64,000 nucleotides of DNA. Origin: Roseovarius sp. ZX-A-9. GTDB taxonomy: Bacteria > Pseudomonadota > Alphaproteobacteria > Rhodobacterales > Rhodobacteraceae. How positions within the stretch are numbered: position 1 is the stretch's first letter; each line of letters starts with the position of its first letter. Below are positions 26,359 through 32,204 of this stretch, piece by piece. A program made the position numbers and the translations under genes. The notes below the pieces were generated by a model. The model worked only from the letters and a program-made list of their open reading frames with translations, ran no database searches and was not told the DNA's origin. The DNA lies in NCBI RefSeq assembly GCF_028369135.1, contig NZ_JAPWHW010000004.1, positions 1-64,000 on the forward strand, read 5' to 3'.

Positions 26359-31058
<4,700 letters not shown>

Positions 31059-31120
31059 GCCGGAAATTTTAGGTGTGATTTCAATCGGTTGATTCGAAAT
31101 CGCACGGTTTGTTCACTTAT

Positions 31121-31135
31121 GTTCTCATAAAGTTC
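31121..31135 (+). promoter_or_regulatory. LexA (SOS) box upstream of a 40-aa membrane protein
   Basis: GTTC-TCATAAA-GTTC is a perfect match to the alphaproteobacterial LexA site GTTC-N7-GTTC. A third GTTC half-site lies at 31111-31114, six bases before the first. The box is 64 bases upstream of the small gene's start and downstream of the recG stop. Confidence 0.8.
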
Positions 31136-31198
31136 TTTACAGAACGTTTCAAAAATGAGAACAAAGGAGCAACACAACGGATTGGAAAGGAAAGCCCG

Positions 31199-31321
31199 AT
31201 GTTCCACCAGATCAAAGCCGCCGCCATCCGCTCCAACGACACCCTTCTGGGGGATGTGATCGGAGGGGCCGCGCTGATCGTCATGCTGGTTGTCGGTCTT
31301 TTTCTTCCCGGTCTCGTCTGA
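31199..31321 (+). CDS. 40-aa single-pass membrane protein, probably SOS-regulated
   Basis: The ATG at 31199 lies behind GGAAAGGAAAG and encodes 40 aa beginning MFHQIKAAAIRSNDTLLGDV. The N-terminus is basic and amphipathic; residues 20-39 form one hydrophobic helix (IGGAALIVMLVVGLFLPG), ending LV. The gene has its own upstream SOS box and a downstream terminator at 31496, so it is an independent unit rather than a recG tail. By analogy with Caulobacter SidA, a 29-aa SOS-induced inner-membrane division inhibitor, a role in division arrest after DNA damage is a reasonable hypothesis; there is no sequence similarity that I can show. Confidence 0.72.
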   Translation: MFHQIKAAAIRSNDTLLGDVIGGAALIVMLVVGLFLPGLV

Positions 31322-31495
31322 CGCCTTTAAGAGTTTCTGCCTGCGATCCATCACCTGTACCCTTTGCGTGCCTGCATCTCCTGTCCCCATTTCCGATGCA
31401 ACGTGACTGACACAGCCTGTTCCGACGTCCTCTCCGGGTTTGCCTCATTTCCCCGGACGGCACGACAGGGTTCCACAGGGGATCGCACCCCACTG

Positions 31496-31534
31496 ACCGC
31501 CGCCATCCATCCCCGGATGTGCGGCGGTTTTTTT
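31496..31534 (+). terminator. Rho-independent terminator
   Basis: ACCGCCGC pairs with GCGGCGGT, extended by CATCC/GGATG inside, followed by a run of seven T. It probably ends the SOS small-gene transcript, leaving about 170 bases of untranslated sequence after its stop, in which I see no gene. Confidence 0.85.
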
Positions 31535-31539
31535 GTGGA

Positions 31540-31731
31540 TCAGTCCCGGCGACCCGGGCGGAGAAGCCAGACTGGCACCAGGAAAGCCAGACAGGCGACA
31601 AGGAAAAGGAGGCTGGCAGCCAGCCCGATCATGTCCCCTGCACGCCATGTGGACCAGACAAAGCCGAGCGCCGACAGCGTGAAGAGGATCCAGCCGGCGA
31701 AATTGAACATCCAGGCGCTGCGTGGCGACAT
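31540..31731 (-). CDS. 63-aa membrane protein with two predicted helices
   Basis: Begins MSPRSAWMFNFAGWILF and has two hydrophobic segments (about residues 8-26 and 33-55) separated by a short WRAGD loop, ending with a basic LRPGRRD tail. I do not recognise a named family. It starts 17 bases after the stop of the IscU-like gene on the same strand, so the two probably form an operon. No catalytic motif is visible. Confidence 0.6.
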   Translation of the reverse strand: MSPRSAWMFNFAGWILFTLSALGFVWSTWRAGDMIGLAASLLFLVACLAFLVPVWLLRPGRRD

Positions 31732-31748
31732 CGGTGCGCGATCTCGGG

Positions 31749-32204
31749 TCAGGCGCAGGAACTGGCGGCAGAGGCCGCATCCAGCGCCTCGACTGAAGCT
31801 TCCAGCGCCAGAAGGATCGAGGCATGGCGATTCTTGTAGTCCTGCGCAGGTCTGAGCACTTCGAGCCCGTCGAAAGGGGCAGGCGGAGTCGGCCCGTCCG
31901 ACTTCAGCATCGCCTTGAGCGCGTCACGCGCCGCGACGACCTCGGCCCGGGTGCAGCCGACGATGTTGGCGCCGACCACGCTGGCAGCAGCCTGTCCCAG
32001 CGCGCAGGCTTTCACGTCCTGACCGTAATCGCTCACGCGCCCGTCCTCGACCTTGAGGTCAACGGTCACGGTAGAACCGCAAAGAGGCGCGCGGCGTTTC
32101 ACGGTTGCGTCCGGCTCTGCCAGACGGTCCAGTCGGGGAATGTCCGCAGCCAGCGCCAGAATGCGTGCCGAGTAGAGCTTGATCATGTCGCTGTTGCCGC
32201 TCAT
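31749..32204 (-). CDS. Iron-sulfur cluster scaffold-like protein (IscU/NifU N-terminal family)
   Basis: A 151-aa protein with the IscU-like fold pattern. Cys42 in RAPLCGSTVTV and Cys67 in VKACALGQAAASVV match the first two cluster ligands. The third conserved cysteine position (in IscU within an HCS motif) reads NRHASIL here and has no cysteine; other cysteines are Cys84 and one in the SSCA tail. It may be a divergent cluster carrier or assembly factor. The start is ATG 32204; hisI is divergent. A 63-aa membrane protein gene follows. Confidence 0.82.
   Translation of the reverse strand: MSGNSDMIKLYSARILALAADIPRLDRLAEPDATVKRRAPLCGSTVTVDLKVEDGRVSDYGQDVKACALGQAAASVVGANIVGCTRAEVVAARDALKAMLKSDGPTPPAPFDGLEVLRPAQDYKNRHASILLALEASVEALDAASAASSCA

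Follow-up and report, generated by a model that had tools for sequence, protein, structure and literature searches.

Comparative analysis of a locus behind recG in Rhodobacteraceae points to a LexA-controlled transcript encoding a small membrane protein and carrying a 3' structured RNA

In a stretch of 64,000 nucleotides (nt) from Roseovarius sp. ZX-A-9 (contig NZ_JAPWHW010000004.1, positions 1 to 64,000; in the following, the window), an original prediction had marked a short open reading frame (ORF) behind the repair gene recG as an SOS-controlled membrane protein of 40 amino acids (aa) and a candidate inhibitor of division after DNA damage. Based on sequence comparison, we conclude that this locus most likely constitutes a LexA-controlled transcript, which encodes a single-pass membrane protein (here named X) and carries a structured RNA at its 3' end. 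We propose that the locus forms an SOS unit of the Rhodobacteraceae which is monocistronic and repressed by LexA. As long as the cell is undamaged, LexA would bind to GTTC half-sites upstream of the proposed -35 element and to a GAAC-N7-CAAC site covering the proposed -10 element and thus keep the promoter shut; after damage, RecA-stimulated cleavage of LexA would induce one transcript of about 365 nt with presumed ends. Its 5' part would give rise to a 40-aa inner-membrane protein, the N-terminus of which is probably inside; via a conserved helix face, X might bind to a partner in the membrane, for which the septal peptidoglycan-synthase complex (FtsW/FtsI/FtsN) is the most likely candidate, and thereby delay division, in analogy to SidA and YneA. 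The 3' part, a structured RNA whose C-rich motifs are mostly unpaired, could be a regulatory RNA derived from the 3' untranslated region (3'UTR), comparable to DinR; it may be excised and act in trans on putative targets, or govern its own mRNA. To this account as a whole, i.e. a LexA-repressed unit with a division-delaying protein and a regulatory RNA, we assign a probability of roughly 45%. The SOS control, the protein with a single transmembrane (TM) segment and the link to recG stood up to comparison; the original prediction was incomplete, as it missed the RNA between ORF and terminator, and it lacked a second operator-like site and a near-invariant TTTAC.

The distal operator (31111-31135, plus strand) consists of GTTC half-sites at 31111, 31121 and 31132, separated by spacers of 6 and 7. 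Its canonical GTTC-N7-GTTC box GTTCTCATAAAGTTC was found at 31121-31135 as predicted, and it ends 63 bases ahead of the ATG of X (64 had been given); the additional half-site noticed at 31111 (31111-31114) is present, with a spacer of 6 instead of 7. The bare motif was found genome-wide 132 times (63+69) versus 125 times (67+58) for the reversed control; therefore, the motif alone was given no weight, and conservation alone was taken as evidence. The window contains five copies versus 1.54 expected, a number reached in 2 of 100 shuffles. Among 58 relatives, which are the top-scoring protein matches and not a random sample, the N7 box precedes X in all cases (69-106 nt before the start), and 54 possess the additional half-site at spacer 6. 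When GTTC-GTTC spacings of 0-20 within 150 nt upstream were counted in these loci, the common values were 6 (54 loci), 7 (58) and the composites 16-17 (17 and 54), whereas each other spacing occurred in at most three loci. Downstream of the box, each position of TTTAC (offsets 15-19 after the box start) is kept in 55-58 of the 58 loci, and a proximal GAAC-N7-(G/C)AAC site follows in 57; in several diverged family members, the proximal site is a perfect GAAC-N7-GAAC. In the window, TTTACA (31136-31141) is our proposed -35 element, AGAACA (31158-31163), located 16 nt after it, represents the proposed -10 region, and the proximal LexA-type site GAACAAAGGAGCAAC (GAAC-N7-CAAC) spans 31159-31173.

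We read the proximal site as a second LexA operator, which would lie over the proposed -10 element. Its orientation is that of the lexA and recA boxes of the source genome, which encodes both proteins. The box upstream of lexA, GAACATGCGTAGAAC (GAAC-N7-GAAC), lies beside TTGACA, and the region reads TTGACA ... AGAACA, which resembles TTTACA and AGAACA at X. The box upstream of recA, which is located in the same window at 1341-1355, reads GAACAAGATGTGAAC on the plus strand (GAAC-N7-GAAC) and GTTC-N7-GTTC on the minus strand; such a box is expected for an SOS gene. The claim of LexA control thus gained support from two LexA-type sites kept throughout the family and from boxes of the same type at lexA and recA, and we consider SOS control of the X locus very probable. 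That a repressor other than LexA binds to these sites appears highly improbable: the half-site at spacer 6 is non-canonical, and the same operator-like string has a single viral occurrence, on a contig where it precedes an unrelated ORF; against this stand the canonical N7 spacing at both sites, the orientation shared with the lexA and recA boxes, and the presence of lexA. The viral string (L279:6147-6169) is the single match of the operator pattern in the viral collection and precedes a phage ORF other than X; there, TATAGTACAAT follows TTTACT at a distance of about 17 nt, which resembles an operator-like promoter on a phage. The length of the distal operator varies, as additional GTTC half-sites in tandem occur in L045, L051, L208 and L221 (spacers 6-6-7 or 7-7). 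A further conserved upstream element, TTTCAGTGGGTTA, was tried as the site of another regulator and rejected, as it is the 3' end of recG; it is kept (at most three mismatches) where the recG stop is near (49 of 62 loci), versus 1 of 16 loci where this stop is far.

The linkage of operator, X and recG was determined by means of an operator-only scan, which used an exact DNA pattern and no protein information and covered one genome per species (84,980 species). The matches listed comprise 118 stretches, of which 115 contain X and 116 have recG upstream, in agreement with the predicted position right after recG. The three stretches without X are a Muribaculaceae contig, whose match was taken as chance, and two loci whose sequence breaks off 80 and 109 nt past the start of the pattern; X follows the operator in 115 of the 116 evaluable stretches. 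The two stretches without recG are the same Muribaculaceae contig and a locus with just 62 nt upstream. Of 117 operator loci listed, 106 contain the third half-site and 110 the proximal site. In a comparison starting from recG, the combination of a box (spacing 6 or 7; only 6 in L219) and a TM ORF was found 3' of the gene in all 30 family loci, chosen as best RecG matches, versus none of 28 loci of other alphaproteobacteria, which were the best RecG matches outside the family from 140 non-family genomes searched. recG (28932-31058, plus strand) is the standing neighbour of the SOS unit and serves as a landmark outside of it.

X occupies positions 31199-31321 of the plus strand. A single-sequence search identified it in 34 of 60 genomes, namely the source and 33 of 35 other Roseovarius, and in none of 24 genomes from other families; within the Rhodobacteraceae, this type of search was positive for 244 of 394 genomes. 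A profile of 51 rows (alignment A1) found X in 343 of the 394, and in 306 of the 347 genomes of good quality. Twelve of the 343 profile-positive genomes contain two matches and the remainder one; a second weak match in the source genome was treated as chance. Across 385 genomes of the class, the profile gave strong matches in five family members and weak ones in three non-family genomes, which we regard as chance because they belong to frames of 770 and 969 codons or contain an internal stop. No credible similarity of X was found in Pfam, NCBIfam, PHROGs or PDB, and there was no plasmid match. The original prediction would have been given up if relatives lacked the ORF or the box; both are kept, as indicated by the 343 genomes and by the box in 58 of 58 relatives. 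In 22 genomes without an X match, recG could be located in 18. Three of these loci lie at a contig edge (L188, L204, L205; the box is visible in the last bases of L188), and in ten, recG is followed by a diverged short TM ORF with a LexA-type box. L202 and L203, two diverged members of the family with AT-rich DNA, have a short TM ORF behind recG with only a GAAC-N7-GAAC box, which in L203 stands beside TTGACT; both are without GTTC repeats or a recognisable RNA.

Codon statistics were computed for the 51 of 58 sequences having exactly 40 aa. The nine closest pairs differ by 0.06-0.28 at synonymous and by 0-0.023 at non-synonymous sites; of 1275 pairs, 465 were within the usable range, and their mean values are 0.52 and 0.27; the entropies of the three codon positions are 0.88, 0.58 and 1.40. 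Judged by these patterns, X is a real coding gene under purifying selection. A loosely defined, ribosome-binding-like purine core lies ahead of the start in 56 of 58 cases. A longer version beginning with TTG at 31109 (70 aa) was rejected, as the ATG column is shared by 53 of 58 relatives and the extension covers the operators. Residues T15, D19, G22, L26, L34 and P37 are invariant across the 51 rows of A1, and the hydrophobic stretch comprises residues 20-38 (Kyte-Doolittle mean 2.43). In the AlphaFold2 model (mean pLDDT 93.5, pTM 0.53), residues 2-11 and 13-39 are helical, the latter helix being in agreement with the single TM segment previously claimed. The conservation is periodic, with a peak at 100 degrees per residue (p by shuffling 0.00055 over residues 13-38 and 0.00325 over 19-38), which indicates that one face of the helix is constrained; this may point to a protein partner. 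The net charge of X varies between -2 and +2 and is most often 0 (29 of 58).

The region between X and the terminator contains the element missed before, a structured RNA (31337-31494, plus strand) with a long closing helix, usually three hairpins, and C-rich loops. Five consecutive T are found 110-330 nt behind the stop codon in 195 of the 207 loci with X and enough sequence, mostly at about 150-206 nt; this distance is partly given by construction, due to the lower bound of 110 nt chosen beforehand. CTGCCTG occurs within 60 nt past the stop in 140 of the 207 loci. The motif, fold, arm-swap, seed-alignment and target analyses are confined to regions in which the T-run lies 150-206 or 150-215 nt behind the stop. 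In 157 such regions, repeated pyrimidine (C-rich) motifs were found 3.61 times per region versus 0.25 times after shuffling; their unpaired fractions were 0.70, 0.71 and 0.83 versus 0.43 for the whole region. Single-sequence folds resulted in at least six closing pairs for 105 of 106 sequences (median 19), versus 192 of 300 chimeras of unrelated halves (median 8.5), and three hairpins were the commonest fold (79 of 106). In an alignment-free arm-swap test, own arms paired better in 102 of 106 non-redundant sequences, with means of -25.1 versus -16.5 kcal/mol; for the hairpins, own arms were superior in 83 of 98, 21 of 31 and 32 of 39 cases, and for two control segment pairs in 58 and 44 of 109. 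Plain sequence alignment of 50 RNAs combined with RNAalifold recovered the terminator and nothing else, and 14-sequence alignments around 13 seeds gave 0-17 pairs. The structure was derived from the single-sequence folds, the arm-swap test, and covariance models seeded by one close group.

The first of these models, R1, which is based on 11 close sequences, detected the RNA at E<=1 in 23 of 58 family loci and in none of 28 controls; one match was misplaced (L032:2517-2645). R2, based on 38 sequences, found it in 55 of the 58 family loci at E<=1 and in 43 at E<=0.005, and in one of the 28 controls (E 0.83). As nine of the 58 loci are rows of A5, the source alignment of R2, the corresponding values for the 49 non-training loci are 46 and 34. 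In the window, R2 matches 31337-31494 with E 6.3e-5 and 32.3 bits, and the next best place scored 11.1 bits. The alignment A6, which was fitted to the structure and includes one control match (L256) and one misplaced match of L013, shows compensatory changes on both sides for 35 of its 36 pairs; its covariation score is 0.447 versus 0.151 after shuffling (reached in 0 of 500 cases), and structures slid along the alignment gave at most 0.078. Helices 4 and 5 are the weakest, with 72% and 66% of cells paired. In all 101 comparable genomes, i.e. those of the 123 R2-positive genomes for which the place of X is listed, the RNA lies directly 3' of X on the same strand and starts 6-75 nt past the matched part of X. 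Taken together, these comparisons make us almost certain that the RNA structure is real. Rfam (release 15) gave no match at the gathering threshold for 30900-31800 of the window on either strand; eight relatives gave only matches far below threshold, the best being Ysr141 with 28.8 bits versus 196. The RNA looks like a new RNA family, which would be under LexA control.

The function of X is best approached by comparison with known systems. To our knowledge, no SOS division inhibitor has been described in Rhodobacteraceae, and searches of an open-licence subset of the literature showed none. SidA, a 29-aa protein of Caulobacter crescentus, is described as an SOS-controlled inner-membrane protein which delays division (PMC4211646). 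As far as SidA is characterised there, X resembles it, as it is by prediction a very short, single-TM inner-membrane protein of an alphaproteobacterium and has SOS-type control; in contrast to SidA, X comprises 40 aa, has a fixed place after recG and shares its presumed transcript with a structured RNA, and the two proteins are likened by description only. YneA, SosA and ChiZ, which are SOS-induced division inhibitors of Gram-positive bacteria and mycobacteria, also possess a single TM segment; according to PMC13396833, YneA uses its TM helix to dock on FtsW, and YneA and ChiZ have a LysM domain, whereas X has no extracytoplasmic domain and only few residues past its helix. Inferring from regulation, size and topology, our best guess is a SidA-like division inhibitor, and we rate the chance that X acts on division at slightly under even. 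Division inhibition was ranked first due to the near-neutral charge, the single constrained helix face, and the mostly single copy at one place.

The presence of two operators suggests that leaky expression is costly, which would fit an inhibitor or a toxin. X might belong to a type I toxin-like unit in the style of TisB, DinQ or Hok, i.e. an SOS-induced, membrane-perturbing peptide which causes dormancy and whose mRNA is governed in translation or stability by the 3' structure. TisB of E. coli is an SOS-regulated, tiny single-TM peptide under antisense control. DinQ of the same species is reported as a LexA-controlled, SOS-regulated toxic peptide with a single TM segment, likewise antisense-controlled (PMC3567139). 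X, which is likened to these peptides by description only, shares with them SOS control and the tiny single-TM architecture, and its presumed mRNA is far longer than the ORF and strongly structured. We nevertheless consider a toxin rather unlikely: the net charge of X is most often 0, one helix face is conserved, most genomes contain a single copy and no plasmid match was found; in addition, the Rfam scan of 30900-31800 gave no antitoxin match on either strand, and no antisense RNA of this kind was seen, an antisense promoter having been sought by a consensus scan alone.

A further alternative is that X modulates some other membrane process after damage, such as a protease, secretion, the release of gene transfer agents or motility. 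A conserved helix face merely implies some partner, and LexA sites have been predicted in D. shibae before genes of flagella, a pilus and the gene transfer agent (PMC6473078). At the X locus, no linkage to such genes was seen, recG being the only standing neighbour among those tested, and this alternative appears quite improbable to us; the in silico LexA targets given in the main text of the D. shibae study include no recG-linked gene.

The RNA itself might be the main product, that is an SOS-induced 3'UTR regulatory RNA repressing mRNAs, perhaps of division or motility, with X being accessory. Its strong structure, the covariation and the repeated, mostly unpaired C-rich motifs would agree with such a role, and UTR-derived small RNAs (sRNAs) are known in Rhodobacter sphaeroides. 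The CcsR RNAs of this species are sRNAs with C-rich loops, co-transcribed with a small protein gene. UdsC, a 67-nt RNA of R. sphaeroides, is described as being cut from the 3'UTR of the mRNA of a hypothetical protein and as depending on an RpoHII promoter; like the RNA studied here, it belongs to the 3' part of a protein-coding mRNA, and it comes from the same bacterial family. UdsC was considered as the X-linked RNA and judged to be probably different because of its reported size and promoter. The precedent for LexA control is DinR of Klebsiella pneumoniae, which originates from the 3' end of the dinI mRNA; its stretch pairing with ftsZ is specific to Klebsiella, and dinIR is reported as the only SOS-box gene among the Hfq-enriched ones tied to an sRNA (PMC10907235). 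With DinR as described there, the RNA shares the location at the 3' end of a small-protein mRNA under LexA-type control and the intrinsic terminator (a likeness of position and structure only); unlike DinR, it is conserved across a family and has its own covarying structure. An RNA as the main product is unlikely: X reaches further than the RNA (343 of 394 genomes by profile), L202 and L203 combine a diverged X and a box with no RNA seen, and the motif-complement genome scan found no target.

Several findings weigh against the preferred account, a LexA-repressed unit with a division-delaying protein and a regulatory RNA. No similarity of X to a known division inhibitor was found, SidA having been outside the comparison. 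Among the matches listed from the operator scan, only 2 of 117 loci possess a perfect proximal site (GAAC-N7-GAAC), and the copy in the window reads CAAC; a sigma-70 consensus scan of 31000-31700 found no promoter, which is why the -35 and -10 elements are proposals. Of the 15 readable genomes without an X match, five contain no X-like ORF after recG (L189, L197, L198, L200, L201). The RNA was detected genome-wide by R2 under stricter filters in 123 of 394 family genomes, at one place each, and among 15 loci from members that are diverged or lack X, R2 matched L190 alone, and weakly so (E 0.053). A target signature complementary to the RNA motif, GGGACAGGCAG, was rejected, as the genome shows no enrichment of it (4 matches versus 5 for the reversed control). 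C-rich motifs are visible by eye in L190 and L191.

A more specific version of the proposal is a family-wide SOS checkpoint with two brakes on one LexA-controlled transcript, namely a protein blocking septal synthesis and a structured RNA silencing mRNAs; we offer it as a tentative possibility. If true, a single damage response would combine two new families, one of small proteins and one of RNAs. Rhodobacteraceae occur in abundance at the ocean surface, and some of them serve as genetic models; as an SOS gene that is nearly universal and has a fixed location, X is a clean target for a knock-out. X and the RNA are small enough to escape annotation; in the open-licence literature searched, no description of either was recognised.

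The strong terminator of the original prediction was confirmed at 31495-31534 (plus strand), with a stem at 31495-31529, a T-run at 31528-31534, a folding energy of -26.2 kcal/mol and a z-score of -6.0. Its helix shows compensatory changes in 6 of 12 pairs in the alignment of 50 RNAs analysed with RNAalifold. It is missing from the plus-strand results of a simple pattern scan, we think because of a one-base bulge. Two terminator-like hairpins occur on the minus strand around the start of X (31195-31241). Behind the recG stop at 31058, positions 31059-31094 contain a second copy of the typical recG 3' end (TGATTTCAATCGGTTGA), which looks like the relic of a duplicated recG end. This copy finishes 26 nt before the box, approximately where recG ends in many relatives, and a duplicated recG end is also seen in some other Roseovarius loci.
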